From the NCBI GenBank assembly GCA_008690995.1, contig VRMN01000010.1:496001-560000 (forward strand): a DNA stretch of 64,000 nucleotides. Reading direction: 5' to 3'. A model generated the notes under the pieces. The model searched no databases and was not told the DNA's origin. It was given only the letters and a program-made list of their open reading frames with translations. The DNA comes from Porphyridium purpureum. Taxonomy: Eukaryota; Rhodophyta; Bangiophyceae; Porphyridiales; Porphyridiaceae. The translations under genes and the position numbers were made by a program. Positions 16,377 to 22,210 of the stretch are shown one piece after another. The first letter of the stretch is position 1; each line of letters opens with the position of its first letter.

Positions 16377-17933
16377 ATGGCGGCATTTCTGTGTCTGGGA
16401 GCCGCGGGAAAGCGTGCGAGCGTGAGTTTCGCGTCATCTGGATTGTGCCACTTCCCGTCTGATTCCGGAAAGTTTTGTGTGTCCAAGGCCGTGGTCGGGA
16501 GCACAAGTGGACGTGTGCGCGTCGCCCGCGAAACGCCCAGGTGCGTGTCTTCGTCGCCGTCTTCGTCACAATATGACTATGACCTGTTTGTGATTGGAGC
16601 TGGATCTGGAGGCGTGCGTGCCTCGCGGATTGCGGCGTCGTATGGCGCGCGGGTGGCGTGTGCTGAGGAACGCTACCTGGGAGGGACGTGTGTGAACGTC
16701 GGATGTGTTCCGAAGAAGCTGTTTGTGTATGGGTCGCACTACGGACATATGCCAGAAGAAGCGCGCAACTTTGGATGGGACTTTGGCACTGATAAAAAGC
16801 TTGACTGGGCGCGGTTTATCGAGAACAAAAACGCCGAGATTGAGCGCCTCAATGGCGTGTACGGGCGGATTCTTGAAAATGCGGGAGTGCAGAAGATCTG
16901 GGGAACAGCATCCATTGTGGATGCGCACACAGTTCAAATTGGGGAGCAGAAGTACACCACAGACAAGATTCTGATCGCGACGGGTGGCTGGCCGAACATG
17001 CCAAAAGTTCCTGGCATCGAGAATGCCATTTCTTCCAACGAGTTCTTTTTCCTTAAGGATCTCCCAAAGCGGACCTTGGTCGTGGGTGGCGGCTACATTG
17101 CTGTTGAGTTTGCGTGCCTACTGAATGGCTACGGCTCGCAAGTCACGCAGATCTATCGCAGTGATCTCTACCTGCGCGGATTTGACCGTGATGTGCGCGA
17201 GTTTTTGGCTGAGCAGATGGTGGCGCAGGGCGTCAATCTCAAATTTAAGACGGACCTCAAGGAAATCGTGAAACTTAGCTCTGGTGCTTTTAAAGTGGCA
17301 CTTACGACAGGGGATGAGATCGAGGTAGACTGCATCATCTGTGCAACAGGTCGCAACCCCAAGTCGAGCAATCTCGGCATCGCGGAAGTCGGGGTGAAGA
17401 TGGGTAAGAAGGGTGAAATTCTTGTGAACGATCGCAGCCAGACAAATGTGCCGAACATCTATGCCGTCGGTGACGTGACAGATCGCGTCAACTTGACGCC
17501 TGTCGCGCTGGCCGAAGGGCATTGCTTTGCCGACTCTGAGTTTGGCGGAAAAGTGCGCATGCCTAGCTACGAAATGATCCCAACTGCAGTGTTTTCGAAC
17601 CCAACCATTGGTACATGTGGACTGACGGAAGAAGAGGCGGACGCCAAGTATGGTCGCGACGATGTGGATGTGTACAAGACCAACTTTCGGCCCATGAAGC
17701 AGACAATCGCTCAGGGAACCGAGCGAACATTGATGAAGCTTATCGTGCATCGTTCCACCGACAAGGTTGTGGGTTGTCATATCGTTGAACCTGCTGCCGG
17801 AGAGGTTATCCAGCTTGTTGGGGTCGCAATGAAGGCCGGCGCGACAAAGGCCCATTTCGATGCCACCATTGGCGTGCATCCGACTGCTGCAGAGGAGCTC
17901 GTGACGCTGCGCTCGCGTGTTGATCGATCGTGA
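16377..17933 (+). CDS. GR: Glutathione reductase, organelle-targeted
   Basis: A 518-residue FAD enzyme that reduces oxidised glutathione with NADPH. About 65 N-terminal residues form a Ser/Arg-rich, acid-poor leader, suggesting plastid or dual plastid/mitochondrial import. The FAD site is DLFVIGAGSGGVRASR (about 69-84). The redox disulphide sits in GGTCVNVGCVPKK (Cys about 105 and 110), and the NADPH fold is VVGGGYIAVEF. The C-terminal dimerisation domain carries the catalytic His in GVHPTAAEE. Length and motifs are complete. It is divergent from PUS10 and convergent with the first sugar phosphate cyclase. Confidence 0.95.
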   Translation: MAAFLCLGAAGKRASVSFASSGLCHFPSDSGKFCVSKAVVGSTSGRVRVARETPRCVSSSPSSSQYDYDLFVIGAGSGGVRASRIAASYGARVACAEERYLGGTCVNVGCVPKKLFVYGSHYGHMPEEARNFGWDFGTDKKLDWARFIENKNAEIERLNGVYGRILENAGVQKIWGTASIVDAHTVQIGEQKYTTDKILIATGGWPNMPKVPGIENAISSNEFFFLKDLPKRTLVVGGGYIAVEFACLLNGYGSQVTQIYRSDLYLRGFDRDVREFLAEQMVAQGVNLKFKTDLKEIVKLSSGAFKVALTTGDEIEVDCIICATGRNPKSSNLGIAEVGVKMGKKGEILVNDRSQTNVPNIYAVGDVTDRVNLTPVALAEGHCFADSEFGGKVRMPSYEMIPTAVFSNPTIGTCGLTEEEADAKYGRDDVDVYKTNFRPMKQTIAQGTERTLMKLIVHRSTDKVVGCHIVEPAAGEVIQLVGVAMKAGATKAHFDATIGVHPTAAEELVTLRSRVDRS

Positions 17934-18135
17934 GCAGAGACAACGCCGGAAAAGAAAGCAAACTTTGTCTTGTATTTTGCACGTTCTGTTTCTTGACTCG
18001 CACGCGTTGCTAAGAGCAGCCGCAGAGGGCGGGAACCGACATGTGCAGCGCTGTCGTGAAATTTAAATTGCAAGAAGATGTAGCAAGTGGCTGATACAGT
18101 AGTAATAAGTAGACTTTTTTCTTCAAAAATAAAAG

Positions 18136-19656
18136 GACACTAGTAGAAAAGAGATCATTGGCGACGCTCAATGTTGGCTTCCATACCAGCATTCAGAATT
18201 TCTTCGTCGATCTTGATGCCGTAGCACTTGTTCTCCTCGTCCAGGTGCATGTTGCCGATCTGCGTCACAAGGCCCATGGTCGGCTTGCATCGCAGGTAGT
18301 GCTTGTCGTATGTCAGCTTCTCCAGCACCTCGGTGAGCGTCATTGTGGACGGAATGTATACTGGAAGCCCGGCCTTCTCAAAGATCTCGTAGTGCTTGTC
18401 CACCACAGACTCGTCGCACAGGTCCATGATGTACGCAATTTCCGCAGACACGCACATGCCGATCGCAATCGCCTCGCCGTGCAGCAGCGCAGGCCCGTAG
18501 CCAGGTGTCCACGACAGGTGCTCCACGGCGTGTCCAATCGCGTGTCCGTACTGCGGGCACATCTCGTTGAAGTCGGACGCGTGGTAGTCCGTGAGCGTGG
18601 GCGCCTTGTGCTCCACCGTCATGCGCACCACCGCCTCCAAGTACTTGGTGTCGCGCATGTTGTGGATCCCCGCCAGAATATACTCCAGCATTTCCGGCGA
18701 CTGCGTGATCGCGTGCTTGATGCACTCGGACAGCCCGTTCAGCAGGTGGCGGTCCGACAGCGTCGTCAGCGTCGCCGGGTCGCACACCACTTTGCACGCA
18801 GGGTAATAGGACCCCACCAGGTTCTTGCCGCGCGGGTGGTTCACTGCCTGCTTAAAGTCGATCGCCGCGTCGGCCTGTCCCATCATCGTCGTCGTGATGT
18901 GCACCAGCGAAATGCCTCGGTACAGCGAGCTCGCCAGGAACCCGCACAGGTTGTTCACCACGCCGCCGCCCAGCGACACAATGCACGAGTGCTTGTCAAT
19001 GCCAGAGTCCAGGATCGAGTCAATCATCCACGACAGCGTGCTCAGCGACTTGTGCATCTCGGCGGACGACTCGCCCGACTCGTCGCACGCGTCCGCCGGC
19101 ATCACCAGCTTGTCCACGTTCAGTCCGGCCGCGCGCATCTCGCACAGCACCATGTCGCCGTACAGCTCGTCCACAATGCTGTCTGTCACGACATAGTTCT
19201 TCGACAGGTGCGACTCTTGCGGCAGCACGCTCCTGGCGTAGTGGCGGAACTGCCGCAGAATGCCGTCCTTGACAATCACGTCGGTCTCCATCTTCTTGTG
19301 GTACCGTCCAAAGTGCGCCGTCACTGGGGCCTTCTTCTGCTTGATCGCGGGCGCCTGCTGGACGGCGCCCGCCGCGGGCTCCACGAGCGCCGACTTGTCC
19401 ACGACGTGGACATTCTGGTTGTAGTTGTTTGCGGTCAACATCTTGCCTGTGTAAATCTTTCGTGCGGCGTAGGAGCTCTTTCTCGTCTAACGCTTCGAAA
19501 CTTGGCCACTCACGGTCCTTCTTCTTGTGCTCTCAAAGTGTCCTCCTCTTCCTTGTCTGTGCTATACTCTTCTTCTTCCTCCTCTTCCTACGACTCTCCG
19601 CAACGCTTGGCCGGCGGAGCGGCAATTTATAGTCGCCACCACGAGCGTGTCGCTTC
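18136..19656 (-). repeat. Inverted repeat arm A (1.5 kb) with the cyclase gene
   Basis: This arm carries the coding region, about 20 bp of 3' flank and about 215 bp of 5' flank. It pairs with 20685-22210 in opposite orientation. The coding part is nearly identical (I count fewer than ten base differences by eye), whereas the 5' untranslated part shows many substitutions and small indels. Outside these limits the flanks are unrelated. Confidence 0.9.
18155..19441 (-). CDS. Sugar phosphate cyclase (dehydroquinate-synthase superfamily), copy A
   Basis: A 428-residue member of the DHQS-like family of NAD- and metal-dependent cyclases. Visible features are the NAD-binding SLGGGVVNNLCGFLASSLYR (GGG about 158-160), the substrate loop DFKQAVNHPRGKNLVGSYY (about 195-213), the metal ligand Glu in GLSECIKHA (about 239), and His residues in YGHAIGHAVEHL and LLHGEAIAIGM (about 321). 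The loop KQAVN..GKNLVGxYY resembles bacterial 2-deoxy-scyllo-inosose synthase more than true DHQS (KTAVNHPLGKN) or the DDGS/EEVS enzymes. The exact product is therefore unknown. About 45 residues precede the fold without a clear leader. Strong bias to C/G-ending codons suggests high expression. The protein differs from copy B at one residue (Tyr here, Phe in B, about 254). Confidence 0.85.
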   Translation of the reverse strand: MLTANNYNQNVHVVDKSALVEPAAGAVQQAPAIKQKKAPVTAHFGRYHKKMETDVIVKDGILRQFRHYARSVLPQESHLSKNYVVTDSIVDELYGDMVLCEMRAAGLNVDKLVMPADACDESGESSAEMHKSLSTLSWMIDSILDSGIDKHSCIVSLGGGVVNNLCGFLASSLYRGISLVHITTTMMGQADAAIDFKQAVNHPRGKNLVGSYYPACKVVCDPATLTTLSDRHLLNGLSECIKHAITQSPEMLEYILAGIHNMRDTKYLEAVVRMTVEHKAPTLTDYHASDFNEMCPQYGHAIGHAVEHLSWTPGYGPALLHGEAIAIGMCVSAEIAYIMDLCDESVVDKHYEIFEKAGLPVYIPSTMTLTEVLEKLTYDKHYLRCKPTMGLVTQIGNMHLDEENKCYGIKIDEEILNAGMEANIERRQ

Positions 19657-20717
19657 GCAGCTGACCGCAGAACGCCAAGCGCGCGGCCGCAACGGACAGC
19701 ATGCTTTCGACGCTGGCAGTCCAACTCGGTCCGAGCAGCTAGAGCCAAGTCTGTGGTGTCGTTCGCGGCAACTTGGATGCAACGTTACAACCGAGCCACC
19801 CAAGATTAATAAAAAAAATCAATCGACGCGTAGAATAGAATCTACATGCGATCGGTTGCCACAAACAGATGCCAAGTAAACTCCGTGTCTGCGTCGTTGA
19901 CGGTCTTCCACTTGCCTCCTTGCTTGCCCACGTCCTCCCACTACGTGCTGTGGAACAAAGCCCCGCCCACCCCCGCCAACTCGCGAGACGAAGCTGCAGC
20001 GCTCGAAACTCGGTTTCCAATCACTGTACCCCCGGTGTCAGTTATTTCTCTATCAAAACCGGGGTGTTTTACTACGAAAACAACTTGAGAAGTCAACCCC
20101 TAATTCTATTTATGTGAGAAACGGAGAGCCGCAGAAAGCGGTGCGTGTGTTCCAGGTGGAGCCGGAAGCTGGAACACTTATCAGCTGGTGAGGTGGAGAG
20201 AGTTGTGAGCGATGTGAAACAGGTGACTGGACAATTGGACGGGTGGGACCGACCGGGGTCGACGGGATGATTGGCTGACAGCCGTCCGTTCCGCGCTGGC
20301 GTTAGCGGTCTGCCGCAAAGCAGGCTGTCCGTTGAGGCTGCGTGCGGCGCAGAATCCGTGTCACTGTTTCCGGATGCATGTTGGGAGCGGACCTGCTCGA
20401 GGTATCGGTTGACCACTCAGCGCGGTGCGCAGCTCGGCGGACCGCGCCGATGAGCCAATCAGAAGACGCGCGGCGAGCCGCGGCGTGTGGCGATTGGGTG
20501 GATTGAGGGAGCCGAGCTCGCTGCGACATGTGTAAATGCGCAATTTCTATCGCTTTTTTTGAATTTTGGGCGTGGTTCAGAGTGTCAACTCAGCTTTGGA
20601 GCCTCACCTGCGCGCGTGTGCGGACGAGTGATTCGAATGAGGCGATTCACTGTTCGAATGCAGGCTTTGGTCCGGCCATCACCGGAAGCGACACTCGCGT
20701 GGCGGCGACTATAAATT
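19623..20717. promoter_or_regulatory. Shared central promoter region of the cyclase pair
   Basis: About 1 kb between the arms, plus the promoter edge of each arm. Each copy has a TATA box in GCGACTATAAATTGCC, near 19623-19636 (minus) and 20704-20717 (plus), each about 185-190 bp from its ATG. The spacer has three CCAAT-type sites: ATTGGCTGA near 20269, AGCCAATCAG near 20454 and GATTGGGTGG near 20491. No convincing gene lies in the spacer; short frames at 19846-20117 and 20487-20779 lack protein-like features. Confidence 0.6.
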
Positions 20718-22210
20718 GCCGCTCCGCCGGCCAAGCGTTGCGGAGAGTCGTAGGAAGAGGAGGAAGAAGAAGAGTATAGCACAGACAAGAAAGAGGAAGA
20801 GCGTTTGAGAGCACAAGAAGAAGGACAGTGAGCGACCAAGCCTCTAAGTGCTAGACGAGAAAGAGTTCCTACGCCGCACGACAAAATTACACAGACAAGA
20901 TGTTGACCGCAAACAACTACAACCAGAATGTCCACGTTGTGGACAAGTCGGCGCTCGTGGAGCCTGCGGCGGGCGCCGTCCAGCAGGCGCCCGCGATCAA
21001 GCAGAAGAAGGCCCCAGTGACGGCGCACTTTGGACGGTACCACAAGAAGATGGAGACCGACGTGATTGTCAAGGACGGCATTCTGCGGCAGTTCCGCCAC
21101 TACGCCAGGAGCGTGCTGCCGCAAGAGTCGCACCTGTCGAAGAACTATGTCGTGACAGACAGCATTGTGGACGAGCTGTACGGCGACATGGTGCTGTGCG
21201 AGATGCGCGCGGCCGGACTGAACGTGGACAAGCTGGTGATGCCGGCGGACGCGTGCGACGAGTCGGGCGAGTCGTCCGCCGAGATGCACAAGTCGCTGAG
21301 CACGCTGTCGTGGATGATTGACTCGATCCTGGACTCTGGCATTGACAAGCACTCGTGCATTGTGTCGCTGGGCGGCGGCGTGGTGAACAACCTGTGCGGG
21401 TTCCTGGCGAGCTCGCTGTACCGAGGCATTTCGCTGGTGCACATCACGACGACGATGATGGGCCAAGCCGACGCGGCGATCGACTTTAAGCAGGCAGTGA
21501 ACCACCCGCGCGGCAAGAACCTGGTGGGGTCCTATTACCCTGCGTGCAAGGTGGTGTGCGACCCGGCGACGCTGACGACGCTGTCGGACCGCCACCTGCT
21601 GAACGGGCTGTCCGAGTGCATCAAGCACGCGATCACGCAGTCGCCGGAAATGCTGGAGTTTATTCTGGCGGGGATCCACAACATGCGCGACACCAAATAC
21701 TTGGAGGCGGTGGTGCGCATGACGGTGGAGCACAAGGCGCCCACGCTCACGGACTACCACGCGTCCGACTTCAACGAGATGTGCCCGCAGTACGGACACG
21801 CAATTGGACACGCCGTGGAGCACCTGTCGTGGACACCTGGTTATGGGCCTGCGCTGCTGCACGGCGAGGCGATTGCGATCGGCATGTGCGTGTCTGCGGA
21901 AATTGCGTACATCATGGACCTGTGCGACGAGTCTGTGGTGGACAAGCACTACGAGATCTTTGAGAAGGCCGGGCTTCCAGTATACATTCCGTCCACAATG
22001 ACGCTCACCGAGGTGCTGGAGAAGCTGACATACGACAAGCACTACCTGCGATGCAAGCCGACCATGGGCCTTGTGACGCAGATCGGCAACATGCACCTGG
22101 ACGAGGAGAACAAGTGCTACGGCATCAAGATCGACGAAGAAATTTTGAATGCCGGTATGGAAGCCAACATTGAGCGTCGCCAATGATCTCTTTTCCACTA
22201 GTGTCCTTTT
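20685..22210 (+). repeat. Inverted repeat arm B (1.5 kb) with the cyclase gene
   Basis: Partner of 18136-19656. Similarity starts near GAAGCGACAC upstream of the TATA box and ends about 24 bp after the stop codon, at ACTAGTGTCCTTTT. Arms are separated by about 1,030 bp, so the locus is a large interrupted palindrome. Confidence 0.9.
20900..22186 (+). CDS. Sugar phosphate cyclase (dehydroquinate-synthase superfamily), copy B
   Basis: This gene encodes 428 residues, the same as copy A except Phe for Tyr at about 254. Other base differences I see between the copies are silent: GGTTAT versus GGCTAC, AAA versus AAG in the TKYLEA stretch, GGCCAA versus GGACAG in MMGQAD. Metal-ligand Glu and His residues and the NAD-binding glycines are all present, so both copies should be active. 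Transcription runs away from copy A and towards the cyclin H gene. The duplication in head-to-head orientation with retained TATA boxes suggests selection for dose. The reaction catalysed is inferred only to superfamily level. Confidence 0.85.
   Translation: MLTANNYNQNVHVVDKSALVEPAAGAVQQAPAIKQKKAPVTAHFGRYHKKMETDVIVKDGILRQFRHYARSVLPQESHLSKNYVVTDSIVDELYGDMVLCEMRAAGLNVDKLVMPADACDESGESSAEMHKSLSTLSWMIDSILDSGIDKHSCIVSLGGGVVNNLCGFLASSLYRGISLVHITTTMMGQADAAIDFKQAVNHPRGKNLVGSYYPACKVVCDPATLTTLSDRHLLNGLSECIKHAITQSPEMLEFILAGIHNMRDTKYLEAVVRMTVEHKAPTLTDYHASDFNEMCPQYGHAIGHAVEHLSWTPGYGPALLHGEAIAIGMCVSAEIAYIMDLCDESVVDKHYEIFEKAGLPVYIPSTMTLTEVLEKLTYDKHYLRCKPTMGLVTQIGNMHLDEENKCYGIKIDEEILNAGMEANIERRQ

Follow-up and report, generated by a model that had tools for sequence, protein, structure and literature searches.

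The red alga Porphyridium purpureum carries, in a 64,000-nucleotide stretch of contig VRMN01000010.1 (hereafter the window), a head-to-head pair of nearly identical genes that encode NAD+- and metal-dependent sugar phosphate cyclases. By comparison of their sequences, these proteins and their relatives, here called the focal clade, appear to be the nearest kin of 2-deoxy-scyllo-inosose synthase (DOIS; BtrC, NeoC and their kin), an enzyme of aminoglycoside biosynthesis, yet to stand separate from it with a pocket of their own. In relatives the cyclase is fused to a reductase or lies beside one. These partners are the best clue to its product and suggest that it is probably a ketone destined for reduction to a cyclitol.

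Each gene of the pair is an intact open reading frame (ORF) of 428 codons. The two differ at 12 of 1287 nucleotides, with 11 silent differences and a sole residue change. They lie in inverted-repeat arms that are 97.8% identical across 1526 bp, and the extent of these arms, 18131 to 22210, agrees with the duplication that a first-pass annotation, made from the sequence letters, had placed at 18136 to 22210. The spacer between the genes would hold both divergent promoters. The features are as follows:

18155..19441, minus strand: sugar phosphate cyclase copy A, 428 amino acids, single open frame (ORF, Pfam domains)
20900..22186, plus strand: sugar phosphate cyclase copy B, 428 amino acids, single open frame, Y254F relative to copy A (ORF, Pfam domains)
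18131..19656, no strand: left arm of the inverted duplication, with copy A, about 215 bp upstream and 24 bp downstream (97.8% identity)
20685..22210, no strand: right arm of the inverted duplication, with copy B, about 215 bp upstream and 24 bp downstream (97.8% identity)
19442..20899, no strand: spacer between both start codons, 1458 bp (ORF coordinates)
21488..21535, plus strand: copy B active-site loop KQAVNHPRGKNLVGSY, residues 197–212 (alignment to BtrC from K141 on)
21614..21862, plus strand: copy B stretch with metal ligands E239, H300 and H321 (alignment, residue counts)
21788..21790, plus strand: copy B codon of Gln297, the clade-specific residue (BtrC alignment, residue counts)

The genome (22.16 Mb, 46 contigs) holds a third copy on another contig (C2:991390-992667), 87% identical to the window copies and matching a P. 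purpureum protein that NCBI calls '3-dehydroquinate synthase'. The first-pass annotation had described the gene dose as doubled; the duplication stands, and with the third copy the figure is an understatement. Two more cyclase-superfamily genes, L004 and L005, occur in the genome besides these three.

Both copies contain the two 3-dehydroquinate synthase (DHQS) Pfam domains (E-values of 7e-31 and 7-9e-22), at scores above the curated cut-offs: 106.7 bits against 24.2 for DHQ_synthase (PF01761) and 78 against 27.6 for DHQS_C (PF24621). The active-site loop reads K197-QAVNHPRGKNLVGSYY, and the aligned loop of BtrC (PDB 2d2x) reads KQAVN..GKNLVG; K197, Q198, N201, K206 and N207 are present in 44 of 44 focal sequences and in 14 of 14 DOIS or DOIS-like sequences. 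Residues E239, H300 and H321 align with E183, H246 and H262 of BtrC, which we take to be its metal ligands. Thus the superfamily assignment, the DOIS-like loop and the intact metal-binding Glu and His residues reported in the first-pass annotation are all confirmed. Ten residues, R175, D191, K197, N207, E239, K242, K279, H300, H304 and H321, among them the catalytic lysines K197, K242 and K279, are invariant across the 44 focal sequences, as is the GGG motif of the NAD site (G158-160). Residues N164, Q198 and Y298 are common to the focal (44/44) and DOIS (14/14) sequences, and H181 is nearly so (44/44 and 13/14); the five DHQS sequences counted, a long Bacteroides sequence having been excluded from the per-residue counts, carry other residues at these four positions.

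To place the proteins by descent, we used a tree of 79 sequences (IQ-TREE, LG+C20, midpoint root), from which the second window copy was excluded as a near duplicate. The 44 focal sequences form one clade with support of 100/99. Together with the 14 DOIS and DOIS-like sequences they are united at 100/99 against DHQS, the EEVS/DDGS enzymes (2-epi-5-epi-valiolone synthase and demethyl-4-deoxygadusol synthase) and EboD, and this union recurs at 100/98 in a repeat tree of 53 sequences free of long branches, for which five further long-branched sequences were dropped and 21 of the 44 focal sequences thinned out. DOIS is the nearest characterised clade in the tree and has its metal and general catalytic residues in common with the focal proteins, which lie not inside it but in a separate neighbouring clade at 100/99; with midpoint rooting, the two are sisters if the root does not fall between them. 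The best-scoring DOIS is 34% identical to the focal protein, and reference cyclases outside the clade are 24-36% identical over the aligned part.

The focal residues that depart from DOIS are at positions 156, 174, 243, 297 and 380. At position 297, Gln is found in 44/44 focal sequences and Glu in 14/14 DOIS sequences; elsewhere the position is Asn in DHQS, and Asp in EboD and in five of the seven sedoheptulose 7-phosphate (S7P) cyclases of the EEVS/DDGS type. The pattern extends to wider samples: Gln297 occurs in 153 of 155 proteins from two focal searches, the other two having no readable motif, and Glu occupies the matching site in 120/120 proteins of a DOIS search (119/120 by a cruder pattern). 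The aligned residue of BtrC is Glu243, which we take to be a substrate-site residue, and the focal clade lacks this Glu. Further, focal proteins have Lys380 and His243, whereas the 14 DOIS sequences have Asn at both. Gln297 and His243 are unlike every other cyclase type compared; Lys380 is unlike DOIS. The likeness to DOIS noted in the first-pass annotation thus does not extend to identity: the proteins are not DOIS by descent, being a separate clade, nor by active site, given Gln297, Lys380 and His243.

That these are ordinary DHQ synthases, as databases name them, is highly improbable, despite several resemblances. The best NCBIfam model is aroB (TIGR01357), the NCBI name of the third copy says as much, and a plant DHQS is both the best PDB sequence match and the nearest fold; the focal clade also has in common with AroB the fold, the NAD and metal sites, and Lys380. 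However, both window copies score 222 bits on aroB, below its equivalog cut-off of 305 and like three DOIS controls (240-244), whereas L004, the separate DHQS of this genome, scores 378. The remaining controls gave 192 (one DDGS), 237 (one EboD), and 196 and 225 (two other focal members), so that the cut-off separates true DHQS from every one of the controls and says nothing on the nearest type. The fold search gave no separation of DHQS, EEVS and DOIS, with DHQS slightly first. In approximately unbiased (AU) tests, whose constrained groups were chosen once the first tree was known, a forced grouping of the focal clade with four DHQS sequences was rejected (p-AU 0.00088). At column 293, Arg is present in 5/5 DHQS sequences and presumably corresponds to Arg264 of A. 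nidulans DHQS, a binder of the substrate carboxylate; the 44 focal sequences have lost it, with Glu in 41 and Gly in 3. Because the aroB cut-off is missed, the DHQS grouping is rejected and a distinct DHQS gene is present in the genome, the focal proteins are very probably not DHQ synthases. This accords with the view of the first-pass annotation that no algal DHQS is involved: the proteins are placed outside DHQS, and the placement within it, which had been set beforehand as the result to count against that view, did not appear in our trees.

Other named families were likewise set aside. The AroB-related phospholyase model TIGR04425 scored 145 bits against a cut-off of 400. An EEVS or DDGS serving mycosporine-type sunscreens was considered and rejected: the focal clade shares superfamily and fold with these enzymes but differs in the loop and in having Lys279 and His304 where the seven S7P cyclases have Met and mostly Pro, and the forced grouping with these seven was rejected (p-AU 2.4e-5). 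A separate EEVS-like gene, L005 (G000:C22:466782-467717; L005:1246-2586), is located on the contig that contains the window, about 28 kb ahead of it. It encodes a non-DHQS cyclase with a KNR-type loop, its best match is the EEVS ValA (300 bits, above DDGS at 228), and it groups weakly with a bacterial EEVS (87/69). EboD, of the ebo operon, is another cyclase clade for which the passages of PMC5133447 give no assigned product and an occurrence in one algal group. It too was rejected, as the five ebo-type sequences form their own clade (100/100), apart from the focal clade on the opposite side of the tree.

By database name, members of the clade occur in Porphyridium, Erythrolobus, Salpingoeca, Monosiga, Entomoneis, Prymnesium (three sequences), Chrysophaeum, Aureoumbra, an Ochromonadaceae strain, Rhodomonas, a chlorarachniophyte and Nitzschia inconspicua. 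The 27 sequences labelled eukaryotic form one clade (100/97), nested with bacterial proteins in the 44-sequence clade. Of the 25 database entries so labelled, 14 carry the name of a eukaryote or derive from a eukaryote transcriptome set and 11 are metagenome proteins placed by similarity; seven entries are labelled bacterial, mostly without an organism name, with one named Patescibacteria. The bacterial gene is rare, with matches at E<=1e-60 in 4 of 299 genomes of the family of locus L011, three of them already known. An initial genome search in which the window protein served as query found no relative, a viral search found none, and a plasmid search returned distant kin only. A cyclase-superfamily protein of a Streptomyces halstedii plasmid (L040:130-1269) has a very long branch and belongs to no reference group.

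Reductases of two unrelated families accompany the cyclase in these relatives. An aldo-keto reductase (AKR) domain is present in 41 of the 120 best homologues (of 3831; counted by eye), and in 9 of 120 in an earlier homologue search that admitted no protein exceeding 1.75 times the query length. The cyclase part begins at residue 302 or beyond in all 20 fusions that we located. One of the AKR-cyclase fusions is P0249 of N. inconspicua, annotated as an aldo-keto oxidoreductase; the best PDB match of its AKR part is an aldehyde reductase (E 2.4e-68), and the cyclase part follows behind. In bacteria the partner is a short-chain dehydrogenase/reductase (SDR). In P0274 and in P0275, which is named Candidatus Parcubacteria, a nucleotidyltransferase, the cyclase and an SDR are fused in that order; P0098 (Patescibacteria) has a partial SDR at its C-terminus. 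We found 12 bacterial loci, 10 of them within the focal clade, and in nine of these 10 an SDR gene lies near the cyclase, adjoining it in L007, L008, L009 and L016 and one gene off in L010-L014; L015, the sole exception, has no SDR gene near its cyclase. In each of those nine genomes, that of L010 included, this gene is the sole match to the L010 SDR at E<=1e-30 among 10-124 candidates. The cyclases of L007-L009 carry a fused nucleotidyltransferase domain, and bacterial neighbours include group-1 glycosyltransferases (L010-L013), a DUF5672 protein (L014, L016) and a methyltransferase (L015, L016), neighbourhoods as expected of surface-polysaccharide clusters. Nothing speaks more strongly for a ketone product destined for reduction than the occurrence of the same cyclase with both AKR and SDR. 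We also observed a PaaK-like adenylate-forming ligase (L010:6661-7971), with homologues about 59% identical in the gene neighbourhood of the cyclase in L011, L012 and L013, and a metagenome protein of 935 amino acids, P0241, with two cyclase parts in tandem. Two loci of Chlamydiota, L017 and L018, encode cyclase-superfamily proteins that fall outside both the focal clade and the core DHQS sequences and are not counted as focal; the flanking DNA examined there gave no SDR match.

We searched for such a partner in Porphyridium. Ten of the 69 window ORFs of at least 150 amino acids were scanned against Pfam; four had no match, and the other six matched eIF4E, Pus10, a glutathione-reductase-type flavoprotein, a cyclin, a kinase and pyruvate kinase. 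Genome-wide there were 10 AKR matches, 19 SDR matches (19 of 44 candidates scored) and, with a bacterial SDR as query, 23 weak matches (best E 6e-23); not one of these lies inside the window or less than 100 kb from the third copy. In a quick tree with long branches, the clade formed by 16 fused AKRs took in none of the 10 Porphyridium AKRs. Any reduction of the product in Porphyridium would use an enzyme encoded elsewhere. The flavoprotein gene (16377-17933, plus strand) adjoins copy A, and its product has an N-terminal extension that on visual inspection may be a targeting peptide.

Against a reference set of two GAPDH, seven light-harvesting and one tubulin gene, the codon adaptation index (CAI) of copies A and B is 0.728 and 0.715, respectively; the reference genes themselves span 0.60-0.79, a partly circular range. 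By comparison, the third copy has 0.58, L004 0.55, L005 0.49 and another tubulin-family gene 0.50, with eight GTPase genes at 0.40-0.67 and six other window genes at 0.39-0.47. Judged from codons, then, both copies are predicted to be highly expressed, on par with light-harvesting genes, as the first-pass annotation had proposed. Together with the three copies, this makes bulk production of a carbocycle by the alga plausible.

We give an even chance to the reading in which this clade next to DOIS converts a hexose 6-phosphate to a keto-cyclitol that is then reduced to a deoxycyclitol. DOIS oxidises C4 of glucose-6-phosphate with bound NAD+, eliminates phosphate, re-reduces C4 and closes the ring by attack of C6 on C1. 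In the focal enzymes, an aldohexose 6-phosphate, most likely glucose-6-phosphate, would pass through the same steps of C4 oxidation by NAD+, phosphate elimination, C4 re-reduction and aldol addition of C6 to C1, to yield a keto-cyclitol, for example 2-deoxy-scyllo-inosose. This ketone would then be converted to a deoxycyclitol by a carbonyl reductase: the fused AKR in the Nitzschia diatom and in many metagenome proteins, the SDR in bacteria, and a separate enzyme in Porphyridium. Bacteria would probably build the cyclitol, partly nucleotide-activated, into surface polysaccharide, and in algae it would probably accumulate as a compatible solute, the simplest role in view of the three gene copies and the high-expression codon use. 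The substrate, the product, the reduction in this species and the solute role are what we infer from these comparisons.

Several alternatives concern the chemistry. The enzyme might be a DOIS in activity, making 2-deoxy-scyllo-inosose from glucose-6-phosphate for reduction to quercitol (deoxyinositol). The grouping with DOIS in the tree, the common KQAVN/GKNLVG loop with N164, H181, Q198 and Y298, and the reductase partners of relatives all speak for this, but the replacement of BtrC Glu243 by Gln in every focal sequence, and in nearly all fetched proteins, tells against it and leaves it somewhat short of an even chance. Departures from DOIS at all five positions named above would also suit an enzyme that acts on another sugar phosphate, be it a mannose, galactose, fructose or amino-sugar phosphate or a C7 sugar, and forms an undescribed ring, as would the rarity of bacterial members in the one family surveyed and the glycosyltransferase neighbours at several loci. 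A C7 substrate sits poorly with Lys279 and His304, which differ from the S7P cyclases, and with the rejection of that grouping; no other result weighs against this alternative, which we regard as rather unlikely.

DDGS offers a precedent for cyclisation plus dehydration in its own pathway. A doubtful but specific proposal is that the focal enzyme is the first of a route to 1,4/2,5-cyclohexanetetrol, a marine algal osmolyte, with ring closure of glucose-6-phosphate as in DOIS plus water loss. The enzyme or its ring product would lose the C5 hydroxyl to give 3,4-dihydroxycyclohexane-1,2-dione, and the AKR would reduce both ketones to cyclohexane-1,2,4,5-tetrol; the route so derived would set two CH2 groups para and keep the trans diol from glucose C1 and C2, which is the connectivity of the compound. 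Gln297 and His243, unlike all types, and Lys380, unlike DOIS, would allow a changed reaction. PMC5334607 names the compound among diatom osmolytes, citing a Nitzschia ovalis paper, and PMC7998644 gives it as putatively identified in Isochrysis; the existence of the Nitzschia AKR-cyclase fusion is a suggestive match of genus, and the clade includes, by database name, Prymnesium, diatom, pelagophyte and Ochromonadaceae members. Against this, the route requires an extra dehydration and two reductions, the clade also occurs in choanoflagellates and bacteria, and our literature search found no report of the compound in Porphyridium. It is correspondingly improbable that the clade is the entry cyclase for cyclohexanetetrol with its AKR, fused in diatoms and separate in red algae, and that the module was reused with an SDR and a nucleotidyltransferase for bacterial surface polysaccharides.

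Within the literature searched, we know of no description of the focal clade and saw no gene for the synthesis of 1,4/2,5-cyclohexanetetrol. Searches for Porphyridium with cyclitol returned nothing relevant, and searches for DHQS with aldo-keto reductase and diatom returned none. The parts seen of PMC7826186 and PMC5462543 contain nothing on the clade, and the passages on sugar phosphate cyclases, including those of PMC5133447, cover EboD and the EEVS of vertebrates and green algae, not the focal clade. By database names, the clade spans red algae, diatoms, haptophytes, pelagophytes, a chlorarachniophyte and choanoflagellates, and it is often filed as DHQ synthase yet is unlike one. Its reductase fusions bear on the formation of cyclic polyols in marine protists, one of these being an osmolyte reported from diatoms and, putatively, from a haptophyte.

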